A stretch of 64,000 bases of DNA. It comes from Alteromonas sp. V450 (GTDB lineage Bacteria > Pseudomonadota > Gammaproteobacteria > Enterobacterales > Alteromonadaceae). Numbering within the stretch: position 1 is the stretch's first letter; the number at the start of each line of letters is the position of its first letter. The DNA lies in NCBI RefSeq assembly GCF_001885075.1, contig NZ_MODU01000004.1:1922001-1986000 (forward strand), read 5' to 3'. Shown one piece after another: positions 46,120 to 56,436 of this stretch. The position numbers and the translations under genes were made by a program. The notes below the pieces were generated by a model that ran no database searches, had not been told where the DNA came from, and worked only from the letters and a program-made list of their open reading frames with translations.

Positions 46120-46737
46120 TTAGCCCCCGAGCCGTTTGCAGTTGCTGGCAAGAAAATCAGTTTCTCGCTCTGTCACTACTAGCGAGCGTTGCTCGGCACA
46201 AAGGTACGTTTTTATGGGCCTTTCGAAGTTACTATCGATGGCACGAGCAATTTGGGTTAACGAACCGGCAACCGTATTTTCAAGTTGAAATTGGTACTTG
46301 ATAACAAAGTCTTGTTCAAGATTCCAAATAACCTGCATTCCTTCAGCTTGTGCATATTGCGAAATTGCACCGCGCAATGTATTTCCTTCAGAAAAGGTTC
46401 TGTATTTATGCTCTCCCGACCAGTTTTTATCTACCGGCCTAGTTCGACTCGACATTTGAGAAAGTGTTTGGTCGAGATTGGGGTCGACACCAGCTACGTC
46501 TAGAACAAAGTCACTTTGTTCATCTTCAAGAGGATCGGTAGAAGACTGTCTAAAGTCACGATAAAACTCACTTAATCCACGCGATACTGACTTTTCAGTC
46601 TTCTGAGACTCGGCTACTGGACTATCTTCTCGTATTTGCAGTATATAGATTAATACGCCTGCCGCAATAATGATGACAACCGCAATAGCAATTTGCTTTG
46701 CCCAAAAAGAAGTACTTGAATAACTCGTTTGACCCAT
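46120..46737 (-). CDS. Single-pass membrane protein with TcpQ-like C-terminal domain
   Basis: 205 residues. A membrane helix at about 12-33 (IAIAVVIIIAAGVLIYILQI) is followed by a polar linker. The C-terminal 100 residues have GNTLRGAISQYAQAEGMQVI then WNLEQDFVIKYQFQL, which fits the TcpQ/PilL C-terminal domain found in pilus-linked and secretin-linked proteins. Two Cys residues near the end (YLCAEQRSL and SNCKRLGG) could form a disulfide in the periplasm. No pilus genes are nearby, so its partner is unknown. It is convergent with glnE, 12 bp apart. Confidence 0.7.
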   Translation of the reverse strand: MGQTSYSSTSFWAKQIAIAVVIIIAAGVLIYILQIREDSPVAESQKTEKSVSRGLSEFYRDFRQSSTDPLEDEQSDFVLDVAGVDPNLDQTLSQMSSRTRPVDKNWSGEHKYRTFSEGNTLRGAISQYAQAEGMQVIWNLEQDFVIKYQFQLENTVAGSLTQIARAIDSNFERPIKTYLCAEQRSLVVTERETDFLASNCKRLGG

Positions 46738-46862
46738 ACTTATAAAAACCTAATGCTGATTTATCTACTTCAATATGTCCATTGCCCTACCCCTATTGTA
46801 GACGAAACCACCAACTGCGCGCATAAGCAAAGGTTGGCGCTAAACCTACAAGTTTAGACGTG

Positions 46863-47792
46863 CTAATTATATAGCGAGGCTGGGTTTTCTTTAGGCCTTG
46901 TTTTAAAACGTTTGTGCATCCAAAGATAACTTTCAGGCTGCTCTTTTACTGCCGCATCAATATGCTGATTTAGCGTAGTTAACGCAGCTGCATCTTCCAT
47001 TTCTCCTAACCCTATTAAAGGTGGGAAGATCTTAATTTTATAGCCGCTTTTTGTATACTGCGACGTAATAAGCATCGGTCTAGCTTGGCTTCGTCTTATA
47101 AACATAAGTGTCGCCGTAGTGGTAGCCGTGTCTTTAACCCCCCCAAATGGCACAAAAATACTCTGTTTGGGCCCATAATCTTGGTCGGGGAGATATAAAC
47201 AGAGCTCGTTATCATCTAAAGCGGCCAATAGCGCTTTGGCATTTCGTTTATCAATCATGTACTTGTTCGAACGATTTCGACCATGGTACTGCAGATAATC
47301 AACAAGCGGGTTGTTGTGCTTTCTATAAAATGCAATGCTCGGGTGGAAAAAGCCGATACCGCGGCACGCAAACTCAAGGTTCATATTGTGCAGTGCCATA
47401 CCAAATACACCAGTACCTCGCGCTAGTGCTTCTTCAACGTGTTCTGTACCTTCTATCACAATAGCGCGCTTCACACGCCAGCTAGGCCACCACCAGCCCA
47501 TAGCCGTTTCAAATAAAGCCATGCCCGTACGGCGAATGTTTTCTCGATAAAGCGTTTCTACTTCTTCATCAGAAAGTGTGGGGTTCCACAGCTGCAGGTT
47601 TTTTTTGGCCACTTTTGCGCGCTTAGGAACAATAAGCGCAATCAGCTTACCTGCACCCGCACCAAGCAAGCGGATCACGGGTAGTGGTAACCATGTTATA
47701 AGATAAAGAATGAAGACACCCAGCCATACAGGCCAATACTTGGGGCCTAAGAAGGCAAGTTTGAATGCTGGAGCTTTTATTACCGCTGCCAA
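46863..47792 (-). CDS. lpxL: Lipid A late acyltransferase, LpxL/HtrB-like
   Basis: 309 residues, as usual for the family. A membrane anchor near 15-40 precedes the acyltransferase core. The catalytic H-x4-E motif is HNMNLE near 147, followed by FYRKHNNPLVDYLQYHGRNR near 170 and CLYLPDQDYGPKQSIFVPFG near 205, typical of LpxL/LpxP/LpxM. It adds a secondary acyl chain to Kdo2-lipid IVA on the cytoplasmic face of the inner membrane. LpxL, LpxP and LpxM cannot be separated with certainty here; LpxL is favoured by overall motif similarity. Confidence 0.82.
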   Translation of the reverse strand: MAAVIKAPAFKLAFLGPKYWPVWLGVFILYLITWLPLPVIRLLGAGAGKLIALIVPKRAKVAKKNLQLWNPTLSDEEVETLYRENIRRTGMALFETAMGWWWPSWRVKRAIVIEGTEHVEEALARGTGVFGMALHNMNLEFACRGIGFFHPSIAFYRKHNNPLVDYLQYHGRNRSNKYMIDKRNAKALLAALDDNELCLYLPDQDYGPKQSIFVPFGGVKDTATTTATLMFIRRSQARPMLITSQYTKSGYKIKIFPPLIGLGEMEDAAALTTLNQHIDAAVKEQPESYLWMHKRFKTRPKENPASLYN

Positions 47793-47899: not shown

Positions 47900-48157
47900 T
47901 TAATGGGATTTGTCGATTGACTTAAGCTTTTTCTCAAACGCTTGGTATTGCTCGTTGTTGTCATAATCAAAATGGTATTGATTATGAAAACCGAACTGCA
48001 ATTTTACGTTCGCATCTTCGATATAAAGTGTATAACCGTCATGGTCCGTAAAAGCAGTAATACCATTAAGTTTATACTGCTCGTTTTCTTTCGCACCAAA
48101 CTGCCTAATTTTATCGAAAACCCGTAATAGAAACTTGCTGTCTAACTCGTTTTTCAT
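47900..48157 (-). CDS. Small conserved protein, DUF3081-like
   Basis: 85 residues. From memory, the sequence order resembles the DUF3081 family of Alteromonadales and Vibrionales: MKNELDSKFLLRVFDKIRQF, then GITAFTDHDGYTLYIEDANV and FGFHNQYHFDYDNNEQYQAF. It is soluble and acidic, with no signal or membrane segment. Function is unknown. It is separated by 72 bp from the envelope operon upstream and has a hairpin after its stop. Confidence 0.62.
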   Translation of the reverse strand: MKNELDSKFLLRVFDKIRQFGAKENEQYKLNGITAFTDHDGYTLYIEDANVKLQFGFHNQYHFDYDNNEQYQAFEKKLKSIDKSH

Positions 48158-48229: not shown

Positions 48230-48760
48230 TTATTTGAAGTTATACCTAAAGCCTATGCTAAAAGTATGTGCAGAAAAGTTGTCTTCACCACCAAAAAACA
48301 CGTATTCCATACGTACCATTGACGAATGTGTTACGTAGTAGTCAAAACCCAGTCCAGCAAGCCCTGCAGCAATGCTATCATCGTAAGCACAGGTCAATGG
48401 CGTTTCAGCGCTTCCACATTGAACATCAGATGATATATCAACTTTCGCCACGCCAAGTTTGTAAAACAACTCGCCAGAGGCATTTGACGCTTTGCCAAGT
48501 AGTGCTGCATAGAGTGCGTCTCCAGATGCATCGGCAACATCGTTGGAATAGTCAAACAAACGGTAGTAGCCACCTTCAGCATACCATTGTTCATGTATTT
48601 GTCTGCCGTACGCTAAGCTGAAGGATATTTCACCTTCACTGTCATTAGCAAAGTCAGCATCACTGTAACCTATCGTTGCGAGACCATAATTAGCTTGCGC
48701 AGCGCAGCTGCCTGACACGCCCATTACCCAAATTACCGCTATCCATAAAAGCTGCTTCAT
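48230..48760 (-). CDS. Small outer-membrane beta-barrel protein (OmpA/OmpW-like)
   Basis: 176 residues from ATG 48760, chosen because GAGGG lies about six bases upstream and a signal peptide follows (hydrophobic core, then SGSCAAQ). An open extension to 48841 overlaps the preceding gene and is unlikely. The mature part has about eight amphipathic strands (NYGLATIGYSDADF, QWYAEGGYYRLFDYS, MVRMEYVFFGGEDNF) and ends TFSIGFRYNFK, a typical barrel end with aromatic residues. Cys residues in VQCGSAETPLTCAYD may form an external loop disulfide. It is the last gene of a four-gene envelope operon. Confidence 0.7.
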   Translation of the reverse strand: MKQLLWIAVIWVMGVSGSCAAQANYGLATIGYSDADFANDSEGEISFSLAYGRQIHEQWYAEGGYYRLFDYSNDVADASGDALYAALLGKASNASGELFYKLGVAKVDISSDVQCGSAETPLTCAYDDSIAAGLAGLGFDYYVTHSSMVRMEYVFFGGEDNFSAHTFSIGFRYNFK

Positions 48761-48767
48761 TCTACCC

Positions 48768-49949
48768 TCAAAAAAAGTATTCCAATGTAAATTGTAAGTG
48801 ATCATCTCGACGTAAAAAGAAATAAGTATCTTGTTCGTCATCAGATGAAAAAAAATAGCTGTCTAGTTTCCATCTCCATTGCGAGGAAATTCGACTAGAG
48901 GCCTCGATAAACCCAGAATAAGTACTCGCTTCGTCCAAGTCTTGAACCATGCCGACAAGTATCTGCGTGCCATCTAAATCATTTAGATTTAATCTAACAC
49001 CAAACATAACGTCATTTTGACCCACCGCGAAAAAGTTGTTTTTTCGCTCATCGAACTGGTATTCGAGTAAAAGCCCAAGTTCATAACCCGTTCCTAATAC
49101 GTCGGGCTGAGTGTACTCAAAACCGGCGACCAGAGCACTAAAATCATCAGATTGTCCCTGCCTATATATCGCTTCAAGTTTCAAAAGCCACGCACCGTAA
49201 ACGCTTAGCGCGTCTATGCCTACCTGCTCAATTTGAGCATAATAAGATACTATTTCAATATTCCCAATGGAATTCAACTTATTAAGTAATTCTGGTTCTC
49301 TCGAAGTACCGTCGAAGTAAGATACCCCCAGTTCCCAATTCCCAAGAGAAGACTGCCATCGTATGGCATAATCGACATGCTGATTTTCCTCTGACGATTC
49401 ATACTCTGCATTACTTATAGGGATAGGAGGTCTAAAACGTCCTTCTGCCCCTTGAAAAGTGCGTTCGCGAAAGTAAGGCAAAACATAAAATGACAGCGCT
49501 CCAGCGTTAGAAAAGTATGCATAATTTAGCATAGCTTGACCAAGTTTAATCTCACCATCAATAGACTCTACGGCATCGGTCTGATTGATGATATCAACTA
49601 AATGCAGCGATTCTGTTTGCCCCCAAAATACTTTACCAATACCGGCTTTAACTTCCCAAGAGTCACCGTATCGTGTCCACATTAGTTCTCGAATATCGGC
49701 ATGCGTGCGCTCGCTGTCGTGTTCATCGATACGTAGGAAAGGCTTAAAAACAAGCGTGTCGTTTCCACTTATTTCGCTGAAAAATTCTGGAGAAAGAAAC
49801 AACGACGTGTAGGCTCGCTCTTGTTGCATATACAATGCATCTTGTAGAAAATATCGTTGTTCTATACCGGCAGAGCCCGAATACTCGATTTCCGCTTGTA
49901 AGGAGCAACAGTAGATCCATAAACCCAGCGTTAACAGTCGCGGCTTCAT
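48768..49949 (-). CDS. Outer-membrane porin-like protein (DUF1302-like)
   Basis: 393 residues with a signal peptide (about 1-19, ending CSLQA). The mature part shows long amphipathic strands. The stretch VKAGIGKVFWGQTESLHLVD then IINQTDAVESIDGEIKLGQA near 100-135 is typical of DUF1302-like outer-membrane proteins found with MMPL-type pumps. It ends QFTLEYFF with a C-terminal Phe, the barrel-assembly signal. It overlaps the LolA-like gene by four bases. It is likely the outer-membrane exit or entry channel of the system encoded by this operon. Confidence 0.68.
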   Translation of the reverse strand: MKPRLLTLGLWIYCCSLQAEIEYSGSAGIEQRYFLQDALYMQQERAYTSLFLSPEFFSEISGNDTLVFKPFLRIDEHDSERTHADIRELMWTRYGDSWEVKAGIGKVFWGQTESLHLVDIINQTDAVESIDGEIKLGQAMLNYAYFSNAGALSFYVLPYFRERTFQGAEGRFRPPIPISNAEYESSEENQHVDYAIRWQSSLGNWELGVSYFDGTSREPELLNKLNSIGNIEIVSYYAQIEQVGIDALSVYGAWLLKLEAIYRQGQSDDFSALVAGFEYTQPDVLGTGYELGLLLEYQFDERKNNFFAVGQNDVMFGVRLNLNDLDGTQILVGMVQDLDEASTYSGFIEASSRISSQWRWKLDSYFFSSDDEQDTYFFLRRDDHLQFTLEYFF

Positions 49950-50740
49950 CGCGCTCTCTTCAAACTATTTTTATTAAAATCTTTGCTAGTAAGGTCAGTA
50001 TCAAACGTGATGCTCTGTGTAATTAAATAGGTCGCTTTTCCCGTTTGTGCGTTTTTCACTTCAGTTCTAAGTGGTCGCCAAAACTTACCTTCATAAAGCG
50101 TGTACTCTTTCGCAACAAGGGTTTTCAGCAGCGCTTCTTTTTTGTCGTAAAACTCAATTTTTTGAACCCGAAAATGCGCTTTATCAATCCATACTTTTTG
50201 GAAGGAGTAGCCGGAGAATTCGTAAACTGGTGTTTGTTTTAAAACGTAACAGTCCTCTCCATTCACATTGTCTTCACCTAAAAGCGTGTAAGAAAATTTC
50301 TCTACTTCATAAGAGGTCATATCTTCGAAAGCGAATTCACTTCCAACGAAAGGACCGCTCTTGTTTTTCGATGAAATCCTTTTAACCCGTTTCAATGCTG
50401 GTAGATAAATCCATTGTTCATCGGCAGTAGCTATGTGAGAAAAGCTTAAAAAAGCGGTGCCAGCAACGTCTCTTGGCGAGTTAAATACGGTTAATGCCTT
50501 GTCGCCATCATTCGTTACCTCTAATGATTTTATACTCAGCTCTCGTGTTGCTTCCTGACCTTGTGCATTTTTCAAAAGCATAGAAACTTCAGCCTCTGAC
50601 GCATGCCACCCTGTATCTCTGACTTTGCGCTCTTTAGCGATTGCTAACGCCTCGTCGTCAGCAGCTACCGAAACATGAGCGTTAAGTAACGTACAAAATA
50701 CAAAACTCAAAATAAACGTCGTTTGGATTATGGCTTTCAT
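49946..50740 (-). CDS. Periplasmic LolA-like outer-membrane lipoprotein-sorting protein
   Basis: 264 residues from ATG 50740, chosen for its AAAGGA site and the signal peptide that follows (about 1-26, ending HVSVA). The mature protein matches the COG2834 pattern: LTVFNSPRDVAGTAFLSFSH near 85, DEQWIYLPALKRVKRISSKN near 110, GSEFAFEDMTSYEVEKFSYT near 140 and CYVLKQTPVYE near 170. The LolA fold binds lipid acyl chains. The gene lies one base after the RND transporter stop, a pairing seen often, and probably shuttles the pumped lipid-like substrate across the periplasm. Confidence 0.8.
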   Translation of the reverse strand: MKAIIQTTFILSFVFCTLLNAHVSVAADDEALAIAKERKVRDTGWHASEAEVSMLLKNAQGQEATRELSIKSLEVTNDGDKALTVFNSPRDVAGTAFLSFSHIATADEQWIYLPALKRVKRISSKNKSGPFVGSEFAFEDMTSYEVEKFSYTLLGEDNVNGEDCYVLKQTPVYEFSGYSFQKVWIDKAHFRVQKIEFYDKKEALLKTLVAKEYTLYEGKFWRPLRTEVKNAQTGKATYLITQSITFDTDLTSKDFNKNSLKRAR

Positions 50741-50741
50741 A

Positions 50742-53039
50742 TTAAGATTCCTTTTGCAGTTTCGCTTTGGTTCCCATCCACAGCAGAAGCGAAGGTAAAA
50801 AGACAAAGTCTACAAGTAGTGCTGCAATAATTATTATAATCGTCATTAAGCCCATGTGCGCATTAAGCATGAAACTAGAAGATGCTAACGCGCTAAAACC
50901 AATCACTAACACCGCTGTCGTTGTCGTTAAAGCCATTCCCACAGACTCAAACGCAAACAAAATACTCTGTTCAACGCCTTTCCCCACTTTTTCTGCCATT
51001 TGATATTTAGACAAAAAATGCACGGTATCATCAACAATGATCCCCATGGTCATACTGATAACCACAGAAAGTGCCATGTTTATCTCGCCCGATACCAATC
51101 CCCATATTCCAAAGCCCACTGCCGCAGGAAGCAGATTTGTCACTAAGCTTATTACGCCTAAACGAAACGACTTTAAGGCGAAAAGAATTAAAACCGATAT
51201 CAGCACAAGGGCAATTACACTTCCCCACACCATGCTCTTCATATTCCTCTCGCCGATGTGCGCAAACATCAGTGGGGGGCTTGCTGCTTCTATACGATAA
51301 TCATTTCCTAAGCTTTGAAAATAGTGTTTTGCCTGTTGCTCTAAGCGAGTGAAGTCGTTGCTACCTAGATTTTTTGTTACCGCAATAACGCGCAAAGCAG
51401 ATTTATCGATATCTATTTGATTGCCAAGGTCAAGCCCAAATGGCAACGACATTTCGTATAGCAATAAGTATTGAGAGGCTAACTCTGCTGTCTCAGGAAT
51501 GGTAAAGTATTCATCGGCATCATTATTCAAATTTTTATTAAGTCGCTTAAGCGTATCGGTAAACGTAAGAACGTGATTAACCGACTCTTGTTGATTTAAC
51601 CAGGCAGCGAAATTTTCGATATCTCTCAAAAAGGCGGGCGACGTTATACCATACGGTTCATCGGTATAGATAACGAAGTCGATGTTAGACATTCCCCCTA
51701 GTTTTTTTTCATTCACATCAACGGCTTGTCTAAATTCGCTTCTGTCATCAAAATATTCAACGGCAACATCATTTAAATGGTTTTTAAAGGAAAATGCGCT
51801 AATCACAATGACGGCGAAAAAACTGATAGGAAGTATTAACCGATAATGTGCTGAAACGGCATTACCCCATCGAGCAAAAATCAGGCTCTGACGAGCGTTC
51901 TTTATAGAAAGTGGCGTAAATGTTAAAAAAGAAGGAAGAACCGTCAAAGACAGAAGGCACGCAAGCATCACGCCGAAGGCGGTCATGTTACCAAGATGAG
52001 CCAAGACCGGAACCGCTGAAAAGTTTAGCATCATAAAACCAATTGCAGTGGTAACACTGGTAATAAAGATAGGCTTCTTGTTCGTACTTATACTTTTTAC
52101 AATCGCCTCTTTCCTTGCAAACCCTTTGCTCAGAAAATATTTTACCCCCACGATGATATGGATGCAGTCAGCGACAGCAAGTGTCGTAATCATAGTGGGT
52201 GCGTTAACCGTGGCGGTACTTAAATAAATACCATACCACCCAGAAAGGCCTACTGTTATGCCTACAGACGTAAACACAACCACCATTGTCCATACCGCGG
52301 CCCAAAAAGAAAAAAGAATAATTGCAACCGACACAAAAATAAGAAGGAACATAAGTGGGACAAGCGTTTCTGCATCTTGTTGCGCCGATTCAGCAAAGGC
52401 ATTGTTCATAATGACCATGCCGGTTAAATAAATCTGATGGTCTTGGTATTTATTCTCTAACTCGTGTTTCAGTGCTTTGGCAGCATTGGCAATAGCGATC
52501 ACTTGCTGGGTCTGATCACCATCTGAAAGCTGGATCGTGGTATCAATTACGGCAACATCATGCTTAGACGAGACCAACCGGCCGATGATTTCCGGTGTAT
52601 TTTTAACTACTCGCTTAATACGTTCAGCATCCGACTGCGACGCAGGGAGTACACCAAGCAAATCCTCCACTACCAAATCGTTATCCTCATCAAACGTATG
52701 CTGGAAATTTGCAATCGACTCAACTCTGGTTGACAAAGGAAGCTGCCAAGCGGCATCGGTTAATTCAGTAATGAGGGTTAGCGTTTTGGGTTTATAGACG
52801 TTACCGTCTTTAGGTATCACCATAAAGGCAACGTTTTCACTTTTATTGAAAACGTTTTGCATCTCTTCAAACGCAAGACGCTGCGGGTTAGTCGGTTCGA
52901 AAAAAACCTTGTAGTCACCTCTGAAGTATAAGTTTTTTGCTCCGATGAGTGATAAAGCGGTAACAATTACAAGCAATATGATCGTGCTCGCGGGATACCT
53001 AACTGCTGTCGGCGTTTCTTCAAGTATTCTGCTCATCAC
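50742..53039 (-). CDS. RND/MMPL-family transporter
   Basis: 765 residues, two repeats of one membrane helix, a large periplasmic loop and five helices. First helix near 17-37; loop starts YFRGDYKVFFEPTNPQRLAF, a motif common to COG1033 exporters; helices between 225 and 385; second half from about 395, with IVDDTVHFLSKYQM near 670 in the last cluster, the Asp being the likely proton relay. The pattern is that of MMPL/HpnN-like lipid exporters rather than AcrB drug pumps. It is the first gene of the envelope operon and divergent from fadE. Confidence 0.85.
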   Translation of the reverse strand: MMSRILEETPTAVRYPASTIILLVIVTALSLIGAKNLYFRGDYKVFFEPTNPQRLAFEEMQNVFNKSENVAFMVIPKDGNVYKPKTLTLITELTDAAWQLPLSTRVESIANFQHTFDEDNDLVVEDLLGVLPASQSDAERIKRVVKNTPEIIGRLVSSKHDVAVIDTTIQLSDGDQTQQVIAIANAAKALKHELENKYQDHQIYLTGMVIMNNAFAESAQQDAETLVPLMFLLIFVSVAIILFSFWAAVWTMVVVFTSVGITVGLSGWYGIYLSTATVNAPTMITTLAVADCIHIIVGVKYFLSKGFARKEAIVKSISTNKKPIFITSVTTAIGFMMLNFSAVPVLAHLGNMTAFGVMLACLLSLTVLPSFLTFTPLSIKNARQSLIFARWGNAVSAHYRLILPISFFAVIVISAFSFKNHLNDVAVEYFDDRSEFRQAVDVNEKKLGGMSNIDFVIYTDEPYGITSPAFLRDIENFAAWLNQQESVNHVLTFTDTLKRLNKNLNNDADEYFTIPETAELASQYLLLYEMSLPFGLDLGNQIDIDKSALRVIAVTKNLGSNDFTRLEQQAKHYFQSLGNDYRIEAASPPLMFAHIGERNMKSMVWGSVIALVLISVLILFALKSFRLGVISLVTNLLPAAVGFGIWGLVSGEINMALSVVISMTMGIIVDDTVHFLSKYQMAEKVGKGVEQSILFAFESVGMALTTTTAVLVIGFSALASSSFMLNAHMGLMTIIIIIAALLVDFVFLPSLLLWMGTKAKLQKES

Positions 53040-53293
53040 AACATCCCATGTCTAAAGTCACTTAACTATTACATGTAATTTAAAAATTAACACGTTGTAA
53101 ATCAAATAACGTACTTACACCGTAGCAATTATATATAAATTCGGTGGATCGCAATATTCACCACAACACCTAAGGCACTGATAAACAAAAACATTAACAC
53201 GATTTAATTCTATAGAACGCAATTTTTTTTGATCTTTTGCAAATTTGTTGTAGTATTAATATCACAACTGGTCAGATGAGCGGATGAGTTACT
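53040..53293. promoter_or_regulatory. Divergent promoter region of fadE and the RND operon
   Basis: 254 bp, A+T-rich. AACTGGTCAGATGAG at 53266-53280 matches the left half (ACTGGTC) of FadR-type operators, while the right half is poor. It lies just before the fadE ribosome-binding site (GGA, 53282-53284). A repressor there could block fadE expression. No PsrA-type palindrome was seen. Confidence 0.35.
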
Positions 53294-55543
53294 ATGAGTA
53301 TCAGAACTAGCTTAAAAAAAGTGTTACCCCCTATTTCAGTCACAGAACAGGAAGCCCTAGATGCGGGTGATGTTTGGATTGAATCTTCAATTTATCAGGG
53401 CAAGCCTGACATGCAGGCGCTTCGAGATATCCCTCAGGCAAAACTGAGCGCTGAAGAGCAAGCATTCATGGACGGTCCAGTAACTGAGTTACTGAACATG
53501 GTCGATGATTTTGAATTAGGTAACGGCAAGCATATTCCACAAGAAATTTTAGATTTCTTGGGCAAAAACCGTTTCTTCTCGATGATCATTCCAAAGAAAT
53601 TTGGCGGTCTTGAGTTTAGCCCTTACGCAAACTCTACAATTGTTGCAACCATTGCAGCGAAAAGTGGTGCAATCGCGGTTACCGTTATGGTACCTAACTC
53701 GTTAGGTCCAGGCGAACTTCTTATGCACTACGGTACTACGGACCAACAAGACTATTGGCTACCTCGCCTTGCAGATGGTCGCGATATCCCTTGTTTCGCG
53801 TTAACCAGCCCAGAAGCGGGTTCAGACGCAGGCGCTATTCCAGACGCGGCTATTGTAACTAAAGGCGAATACAACGGCGAAGAAGTACTTGGCCTTCGCG
53901 TTAGCTGGGACAAGCGATACATTACGCTTGCACCCATTGCGACAGTACTAGGTCTTGCGTTTAAAGTATTCGACCCAGACCAACTTCTTGGTGACAAGCT
54001 AGAGCTAGGTATCACCTGTGCTCTTTTACCTAAGTCACACCCAGGAGTTGAGCTTGGTAACCGTCACGACCCAATGGGCGTACGTTTCTACAACGGTACT
54101 ACTCGTGGCCAAGATGTGTTCATCCCAATGGACTTCATCATTGGTGGTCAGAAGAATATCGGTCGCGGCTGGCAGATGTTGGTTAGCTGTCTGGGTGCAG
54201 GTCGTGGTATTTCACTTCCAGCAATGGGCGTAGCTACCGCACAATCTGCTTTCAAAGGCACGGTTGAATATTCATTTGTGCGTGAACAGTTTGGTCTTCC
54301 AATTGGTCGCTTTGAAGGTATTCAAGAGAAAATGGCAGACATCGCAGGTAAGACTTTCTTACTTGAAGCGATGCGTGTACTTACCACTGAAGGCCTAGGC
54401 CTAGGTGTTAAGCCATCAGTAGTAACCGCTATTGCTAAGTATCACATGACTGAATTAGGTCGTGATGTAATGAATTCTGCTATGGATATTCAAGCGGGTA
54501 AAGCGATTCAACGCGGCCCACAGAATACGTTAGCGGGCGGCTATGCAGCGCTTCCAATCGCGATTACGGTTGAAGGTGCAAACATTCTTACACGAAACCT
54601 AATGATTTTCGGTCAAGGTGCAATGCGTTGTCACCCTTACCTTAAAGACATGGTTGACCTTATTCACAGCAACGAAAGTTCAGCGGATGCAGAGTTCAAT
54701 AAAGTTCTTCGTAAGACGGTCGGTTTCAGCGTTAAGAATGCGTTCCGCAGCTTAGGTAAAGGCTATCTTCCTTTCCTACGTGAAAGCGAGTCGGCATTGC
54801 CAGAAGTTCGCAAGTACGAGAAGCGTGTAAACAGCATCTCGGCAAAACTAGCGCCACTTGCTGATTTATCGCTTGCGGTACTAGGCGGCGACCTTAAGAA
54901 AGCGGAGCTTTTATCTGCACGTCTTGGTGACGTAATGAGCTACCTATATGGTGCAATGGCAGCGATTCGTTTCTACGAGCAGCGCATTGAAGACAGAAAG
55001 CTAGCTCTACCGTATTTCGAATACGCAATGCAGTGGTCTTTACAGCAAGCTGATCAGGCAATTGTTAACTTTATCAACAATTTCCCGAACACGGCGACAC
55101 GTGGTCTAATGCGTCTTCTTACCAACACTTATACCAATAGTGTTGCGGGTATTAGCGACGACCTAGTGCGTGAACTGTCAATTGCATCTATGCAAGACAA
55201 CAGCGTTAAAGACCAGCTTACACACCTAGTACGTGTTAGCCCTGGTGATGGCAACGACATCAATGAACAAGCGTTTAAAGCGAAGCACGCGGTAGCGCAT
55301 CTTCTTGGTAAAGTGCAAAAAGCGCTTCGCAAAGAGCCTGTAGTGCCGTTCATTTCTTTTGAGCACGCACTTAACAAGCTTCAAGAAAAAGGCGTAATTA
55401 CGGCGGATGAAGCAGCTAAACTTCACGACTACAACGAGAAGCGTAAGCTTGCTGTTCGTGTCGACGAATACACGTTTGACCTAGAGCTCCTTCCTGCATC
55501 TCAAACGCTTAAGGCGGTTGATGGCGGTCAAAACGCAGCATAA
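53294..55543 (+). CDS. fadE: Acyl-CoA dehydrogenase FadE
   Basis: 749 residues. Strong likeness to E. coli FadE is visible in FFSMIIPKKFGGLEFSPYA, VPNSLGPGELLMHYGT, PCFALTSPEAGSDAGAIPD and KRYITLAPIATVLGLAFKV. It oxidises acyl-CoA to trans-2-enoyl-CoA with FAD, the first step of beta-oxidation. It lacks the N-terminal membrane segment of about 70 residues present in E. coli FadE (814 residues). Codons look strongly biased (CGT, GGT, CTT) compared with neighbours, suggesting high expression. It is a single gene ending at a clear terminator. Confidence 0.95.
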   Translation: MSIRTSLKKVLPPISVTEQEALDAGDVWIESSIYQGKPDMQALRDIPQAKLSAEEQAFMDGPVTELLNMVDDFELGNGKHIPQEILDFLGKNRFFSMIIPKKFGGLEFSPYANSTIVATIAAKSGAIAVTVMVPNSLGPGELLMHYGTTDQQDYWLPRLADGRDIPCFALTSPEAGSDAGAIPDAAIVTKGEYNGEEVLGLRVSWDKRYITLAPIATVLGLAFKVFDPDQLLGDKLELGITCALLPKSHPGVELGNRHDPMGVRFYNGTTRGQDVFIPMDFIIGGQKNIGRGWQMLVSCLGAGRGISLPAMGVATAQSAFKGTVEYSFVREQFGLPIGRFEGIQEKMADIAGKTFLLEAMRVLTTEGLGLGVKPSVVTAIAKYHMTELGRDVMNSAMDIQAGKAIQRGPQNTLAGGYAALPIAITVEGANILTRNLMIFGQGAMRCHPYLKDMVDLIHSNESSADAEFNKVLRKTVGFSVKNAFRSLGKGYLPFLRESESALPEVRKYEKRVNSISAKLAPLADLSLAVLGGDLKKAELLSARLGDVMSYLYGAMAAIRFYEQRIEDRKLALPYFEYAMQWSLQQADQAIVNFINNFPNTATRGLMRLLTNTYTNSVAGISDDLVRELSIASMQDNSVKDQLTHLVRVSPGDGNDINEQAFKAKHAVAHLLGKVQKALRKEPVVPFISFEHALNKLQEKGVITADEAAKLHDYNEKRKLAVRVDEYTFDLELLPASQTLKAVDGGQNAA

Positions 55544-55734: not shown

Positions 55735-56436
55735 ATGGCCAAGATATCAATTTTAGAACGGCGTTTTCTGGCTTTCTGCCATGTGTTTATCTTATTAAGT
55801 TTTGCTGTATTCATCGGACATGCCTACGCGGATCACGACGACGAGCATTTTATAATTGGTTATGTCAATCATCCTCGCGTTGTAAATCATTACAAGCCGC
55901 TGATAGAAAAGGCATATCAAGAAATTGGTATAAACGCGACATTTGAAGTCGTGGGGGGCGAAAGAGGGCTGAGACTGTTAAATCAAGAGATGACAGATGC
56001 TGATGTTATTCGTTATGAAATAGTGGCAACCTTGGATAACAACCTTATTGTCGTTGAACCTGCCCTCGCTTATGGCGCTTCACTTCTACTTTGCGCGCGC
56101 GGTATGTTGTGCAGCAAAAGTGTATTACACGACCCTGATACCGCAATCGCTGTAACTACACGGTTCTTTTATAACATAGACTCTGATCCTTCCAGTCTGC
56201 AAGCCAACATTTCCGAATTTGAAGATTTTAACCAAGTTATTACGTTGTTACGCAGCGGGCGATTTAACTACGCTATCTTGCCTAGCGATTTTTCTGAAAA
56301 TGAAATATTTGAAAAGGCTGGTATAGAATACCTCCCTTTGGTTACACATAAACTTGTTCATGTTATTAATAAGAAACATGTTGCACTAAAGACCCCCCTG
56401 TCGCGAGCTATTGCAAATCAGCTAAAAAACCAATAG
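55735..56436 (+). CDS. Periplasmic solute-binding-like protein (SBP family 3 fold)
   Basis: 233 residues. A signal peptide of about 37 residues ends GHAYA. The mature part resembles small periplasmic binding proteins of the amino-acid type: FIIGYVNHPRVVNHYKPLIE, then AYQEIGINATFEVVGGERGL, ADVIRYEIV and SGRFNYAILPSDFSEN near 175. No transporter genes lie nearby. Such orphan proteins in marine gammaproteobacteria may act as sensors or have lost transport roles. Two Cys (CARGMLC) near 118 may form a disulfide. Ligand is unknown. Confidence 0.65.
   Translation: MAKISILERRFLAFCHVFILLSFAVFIGHAYADHDDEHFIIGYVNHPRVVNHYKPLIEKAYQEIGINATFEVVGGERGLRLLNQEMTDADVIRYEIVATLDNNLIVVEPALAYGASLLLCARGMLCSKSVLHDPDTAIAVTTRFFYNIDSDPSSLQANISEFEDFNQVITLLRSGRFNYAILPSDFSENEIFEKAGIEYLPLVTHKLVHVINKKHVALKTPLSRAIANQLKNQ

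Follow-up and report, generated by a model that had tools for sequence, protein, structure and literature searches.

An envelope unit of pump, carrier and barrel

Three adjacent genes on the minus strand of a 64,000-nucleotide stretch of Alteromonas sp. V450 (contig NZ_MODU01000004.1, positions 1,922,001 to 1,986,000; hereafter the window) encode an MMPL-type RND pump, a LolA_like periplasmic carrier and an outer-membrane barrel. Their joint occurrence in many marine bacteria makes a single machine the most likely interpretation. We read this machine, with a probability of about 0.6, as a three-part exporter. Its cargo is probably hydrophobic and of an acyl type, with a fatty acid as a plausible candidate. 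The three-part machine is supported by the all-or-none presence of the set, the tight spacing of the genes in most loci, and the fusion of carrier and pump in relatives.

The pump gene (50742-53039, 765 amino acids) starts at GTG 53039 or, equally possibly, at ATG 53036. It is followed by the genes for the carrier (49946-50740, 264 amino acids, start ATG 50740), the barrel (48768-49949, 393 amino acids) and a small 8-stranded barrel that lies outside the conserved core (48230-48760, 176 amino acids, start ATG 48760). In the list of open reading frames the carrier began at an upstream TTG (50806) overlapping the pump gene, and the small barrel at an upstream ATG (48841) within the barrel gene; with the starts used here, the four genes of 48230-53039 are spaced by 1, -4 and 7 bases. 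This arrangement, with fadE divergent from the run, had been described in the initial annotation and was borne out by the gene calls. A search of the gaps separating the four genes gave no promoter-like or terminator-like site, a weak test since regional promoter matches were fewer than in shuffled sequence.

Each protein was searched for in 147 genomes of the same family. At the cut-offs chosen, pump, carrier and barrel were jointly present in 71 genomes and partial sets were found in none (Fisher p 9e-44 for pump versus barrel, kinship ignored). The cut-offs (E <= 1e-120 for the MMPL protein, <= 1e-60 for the barrel and <= 4.8e-40 for the carrier) were set after viewing the match lists, which gap widely at these values. 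A genome with the pump in two pieces (G107) and one with the carrier cut at a contig end (G110) were counted as present, and G030, with a barrel fragment at 4.5e-28, was left out of the 71. This remnant (C1:590100-590582) carries two stop codons in a genome that lacks the unit, which suggests a recent loss. Taken more widely, members of the barrel family turned up in 44 of 59 genomes of the genus and, in a sample of 368 genomes from the whole class, in 124.

The order pump-carrier-barrel recurred beyond chance, being kept in 38 of the 41 loci of the first set, which includes the window and one locus that is not orthologous (L078); the locus sets also hold some duplicates, such as L045/L126, L073/L171 and the near-identical L128/L130. 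The pump gene lies elsewhere in G011, G123, G094, G060 and G053, where the genes for carrier, barrel, small barrel and a DUF3081 protein are still beside fadE, and in G044 the barrel is on a separate contig with all three core genes still present. That genomes with scattered genes keep all three argues for a link through function and not mere adjacency. The view that four genes form one unit held for pump, carrier and barrel (71/71/71 of 147) and failed for the small barrel, and the comparison of gene order across relatives likewise recovered the three-gene order and not a conserved four-gene set. The proposal that the parts reach from the inner membrane through the periplasm to the outer membrane was supported for the three core parts.

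In L144, L149 and L183 the unit is followed by genes for a TolC-type channel, an adaptor-size protein and an HAE1-size RND protein, and in L140 by an HAE1-type set without the channel gene. The HAE1 link is real in one Oceanospirillales group, and in split Alteromonas-type genomes the MMPL gene has a different HAE1 pump nearby, with about 33% identity. Because the HAE1 pumps of the two groups differ, a single HAE1 linkage of the unit was rejected.

Features of the three core proteins

The pump matched PF03176 (MMPL) over two stretches at 9.2e-35 and 120.6 bits, passing the curated cut-off of 20.5. Its solved relatives by sequence are MmpL4/5, HpnN, Dispatched and AcrB, and it scored 80.3 bits against the HpnN model, far under the curated cut-off of 751.85. 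Residues D291, H294, D670, D671 and H674 were invariant among 18 aligned sequences; by likeness to MmpL3 and HpnN, we take D291, D670 and D671 as the putative proton relay. RND/MMPL relatives such as HpnN and MmpL have lipid cargo in known cases.

The carrier passed the curated cut-off of PF17131 (LolA_like; 2.5e-62, 210.2 bits, cut-off 30) and gave a weaker Pfam match to DUF1329 (1.8e-8). Residues 29-262, nearly the whole mature protein, matched the solved structure 3bk5 at E 1.5e-85, or 2e-128 with the family profile. The curated models for LolA proper were not reached (LolA1_Flavo, 15.6 bits with a cut-off of 100; LolA3_fam, 14.2 with a cut-off of 83).

For the barrel, none of 18 members had a Pfam match and no sequence match was found among solved chains. 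The predicted model is confident (predicted local distance difference test score, pLDDT, 92.8), with about 18 strands as counted from the model, and it resembled the Occ/OprD and AlgE folds at Z about 23; sequence identity in these alignments was 6-12%. The fold matches listed do not include FadL, which excludes nothing. Open reading frames of 545-844 amino acids were seen for the barrel in L046, L057, L058, L061, L062, L065 and L072, the usual size being 400 amino acids.

Regulators of the unit and the position of fadE

In 16 of the 41 first-set loci and 58 of the 121 rows of a pump tree, the pump gene has a TetR gene on its upstream side (TetR_N by Pfam in a representative). The palindrome TGACG-N3-CGTCA upstream of TetR and pump gave 135 matches in 136 loci (2.13 Mb), and for 127 of these the nearest gene start was that of TetR or the pump. 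This predicted operator occurs in 56 of the 60 loci that have both TetR and pump, in none of the 16 fadE-type loci and in 2 of the 46 others. Exact occurrences of TGACGANTCGTCA in 17 genomes fell at the pump locus in 17 of 21 cases, as assigned by hand from locus coordinates, and elsewhere in four, one of them in the window's genome; on these numbers a wider regulon for the TetR operator was rejected. That many loci carry a TetR of their own points to an inducible response.

In the window, the divergent promoter region (53040-53293, 254 bases) separates the pump gene from fadE, an acyl-CoA dehydrogenase gene on the plus strand (53294-55543; NCBIfam PRK13026.1, 1100.5 bits; ACDH_C, 1.5e-73). 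The TGACG-N3-CGTCA operator is absent from this region, and a FadR-like box, AACTGGTCAGATGAGC, lies beside fadE; the exact box occurs in the genome only here. We take it to resemble a FadR site. The full box was present in 19 of 22 fadE-containing loci, with one more cut at the stretch end and two lacking it. The genome encodes a true FadR (372.7 bits, cut-off 249.2), and no FadR regulon was visible from the box pattern in this genome at <=3 mismatches (23 matches, compared with 27 for the reversed-pattern control). The pump may be under FadR control, and control by fatty-acid status is possible in the lineage of the window.

Adjacency to fadE is confined to a single region of the pump tree, with 15 of its 121 rows, and the outer neighbours at most loci are unrelated genes, such as those for phenylalanyl- and glycyl-tRNA synthetases. 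In G100, a genome of the same genus in which a whole-genome search found no match to pump, carrier or barrel, the FadR-like box remains with fadE (one such locus read), and the small-barrel gene comes 355 bases after fadE. Divergent fadE had been taken as a pointer to a fatty-acid or lipid route; the narrow distribution and the pumpless locus weaken the case for fadE as a functional partner. Both fadE and the small-barrel gene are mostly bystanders.

A TetR query against 20 genomes, mostly of the fadE type, gave two matches, one strong (G144, 1.5e-67) and one weak (G123, 9.6e-13), and no match in the window's genome. Promoters of fadE-type pumps shared no palindrome except in one pair of duplicate loci. 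In the pump tree, which excludes L126 and pumps outside 700-900 amino acids, the fadE-type pumps are nested among the TetR-type, with 5 label changes of which at least 2 are forced by supported branches. The simplest reading of these sequences would be that TetR and its operator were lost around the time the unit came beside fadE.

Divergent relatives and described systems

Seven divergent loci (L235-L237 and L239-L242), picked partly for a nearby carrier match, were read. Pump and carrier are fused in two and adjoining in four, and L242 has no carrier match. The fused MMPL-LolA_like proteins (L235:5186-8359 and L236:5174-8425) are about 1060-1080 amino acids long and have a barrel gene adjoining. 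In L241 (1239-14001) a nonribosomal peptide synthetase (NRPS) gene is followed after 42 bases by the MMPL gene and then by the carrier gene, three genes (one for an ABC-2 membrane protein) and the barrel gene. A polyketide synthase (PKS)-type protein is encoded beside the L239 cassette, and a 4HBT thioesterase gene overlaps the pump gene of L240. Other neighbours are short-chain dehydrogenase/reductase (SDR) and glutathione S-transferase (GST) genes in L236 and hydrolase genes in L235 and L237. To judge from these gene contents, the neighbourhoods would fit export of hydrophobic compounds after their synthesis or processing.

The divergent loci also bear on the barrel. Its profile scored 39.7 against the DUF1302 profile, compared with at most 25.6 for 20 column shuffles and 23.1 for the reversed profile. 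Its conserved segment WG-x-T...HLVDxINQTD is similar to a stretch found in the DUF1302 barrels and has a counterpart in five of six divergent-cassette barrels inspected, and three of five divergent barrels scanned matched DUF1302 itself. Given the shared segment and these matches, the window barrel, the divergent-cassette barrels and the DUF1302 barrels probably belong to one superfamily.

Among systems already described, the nearest are AmeABCD of Castellaniella defragrans and the TOL_3187/TOL_3188 pair of Thalassolituus oleivorans. AmeABCD is reported to consist of DUF1302, DUF1329 and YCF48-type proteins and an HAE3 pump, and its deletion lowered monoterpene tolerance and raised Nile Red accumulation (PMC6394551). 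Like the window unit, it unites an HAE3-like pump, a LolA-superfamily periplasmic protein and an outer-membrane barrel in one cassette, its carrier and barrel families being distant relatives of those in the window. The unit in the window differs in having no YCF48-type gene, a PF17131 carrier in place of DUF1329, a barrel of 393 amino acids without a DUF1302 Pfam match, and the pump gene first. A separate, complete Ame-type cassette with DUF1302, DUF1329, YCF48-type and MMPL genes is present in the same genome (C4:1120369-1127271; L078:2370-9272), followed by a gene for NAD-glutamate dehydrogenase.

TOL_3187 is described as combining two MMPL domains with a LolA-like one, and a porin gene comes directly after it; TOL_3187 increased 42-fold on n-C28, and TOL_3188 could be detected on that substrate alone (PMC6304351). 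By this description pump and carrier are one protein, as in the fused proteins of L235 and L236 and unlike the window, and the pair is a probable fused cousin of the window unit, which departs from both described systems in parts and regulator. HpnN, according to the AmeABCD report, operates without periplasmic or outer-membrane partners (PMC6394551). Compared with LolA/LolB sorting, the LolA_like carrier of the window is partnered with an MMPL pump and not with LolCDE. In the literature within reach, with subscription journals largely outside it, no paper on a PF17131 cassette or its operator was found.

Direction, cargo and alternative explanations

In the proposed mechanism, the proton-driven RND pump would draw its hydrophobic or amphiphilic substrate out of the inner membrane and pass it, at the periplasmic face, to the soluble LolA-fold carrier. 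The carrier would ferry it across, and the barrel of about 18 strands would release it outside or into the outer membrane. An RND motor and a span across the envelope are shared with HAE1 systems such as AcrAB-TolC; the unit encodes neither a membrane-fusion adaptor nor a TolC-type channel, and the soluble carrier would stand in for both. We infer the export direction, the order of hand-over and the acyl cargo, whether fatty-acid-like or other. Of the fatty-acid or lipid export/import route envisaged in the initial annotation, a lipid-like cargo remains plausible, and import appears less likely than export by analogy and from the divergent relatives in NRPS/PKS loci. It is possible, though doubtful, that the unit represents a widespread uncharacterised envelope route, with an RND motor, a LolA-fold shuttle and an OprD/AlgE-like outlet, no adaptor or TolC, and induction via its own TetR and TGACG-N3-CGTCA, which in Alteromonas was rewired away from that repressor to fatty-acid (FadR) status as an acyl overflow valve. 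How hydrophobic molecules cross the periplasm outside tripartite pumps is poorly known. Strict co-occurrence across the 147 genomes, a part closely matching a solved structure, and a predicted repressor and operator in many relatives make the partners, inducer and cargo directly testable.

Several observations weigh against the exporter. The pump is a relative and not a member of TIGR00921 HAE3 (168.9 bits, under the cut-off of 351.9). The barrel fold suits Occ/OprD channels as well as the exporter AlgE. The divergent proteins are only about 22-35% identical to those of the window and come from 7 partly selected loci, and the substrate and direction of the subfamily would be assigned by analogy. 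In addition, the authors of the T. oleivorans study take the TOL_3187/TOL_3188 pair as an aid to uptake (PMC6304351).

One alternative is envelope maintenance, in which an endogenous lipid would move from inner to outer membrane in the manner of HpnN/MmpL3 without release from the cell. In its favor are the LolA fold of the carrier, the distant kinship of the pump to HpnN and, in several relatives as well as the window, a downstream gene for a lipid A acyltransferase. We consider it unlikely, since the patchy presence of the unit, seen in 71 of 147 genomes of the family and 44 of 59 of the genus, disfavors a housekeeping role and many loci have a dedicated TetR.

Uptake, with barrel and carrier bringing long-chain fatty acids or alkanes inward for fadE and beta-oxidation, would agree with the OprD-type fold, the divergent fadE of some loci and the authors' uptake model for TOL_3188 (PMC6304351). 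It is made quite unlikely by the absence of fadE from most loci, whose outer neighbours are unrelated genes, by the pumpless G100, which retains fadE, and by the NRPS/PKS loci of divergent relatives, which suit export. To our knowledge, moreover, the RND/MMPL pumps whose direction is known all export.

The small barrel and neighboring genes

The small barrel gave only sub-threshold Pfam matches (OMP_b-brl, 1.1e-4), and its predicted model (pLDDT 79.2) has 8 strands and is OmpA/OmpX/NspA-like. Its gene directly follows the barrel gene in all 30 genus loci read (44 genomes with a barrel match), and because it trails so closely, co-transcription of the two in the window is likely on the evidence of gene order. 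A true four-part system with the small barrel as an essential subunit, for which this order, the 7-base gap and an odds ratio of 6.8 for co-occurrence with the pump would speak, is highly improbable and was rejected as a conserved unit, given that 42 of 71 pump genomes lack the small barrel, that 7 of the 36 small-barrel genomes (among 147) lack the pump and 29 have the core, and that the two barrel genes are 2.5-4.1 kb apart in L040, L051 and L054. The small barrel is a separate neighbor and not a member of the conserved unit.

On the far side of the divergent region, a 233-amino acid gene without a Pfam match lies beside fadE on the plus strand (55735-56436). Downstream of the small barrel is the DUF3081 gene (47900-48157, minus strand; PF11280, 1.3e-30); 20 of the 30 small-barrel loci have one close by. 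In the window the DUF3081 gene is followed at 46120-47792 by a lipid A acyltransferase-family gene and a TcpQ-domain gene, and the order of these two with the small-barrel and DUF3081 genes is kept in several relatives.

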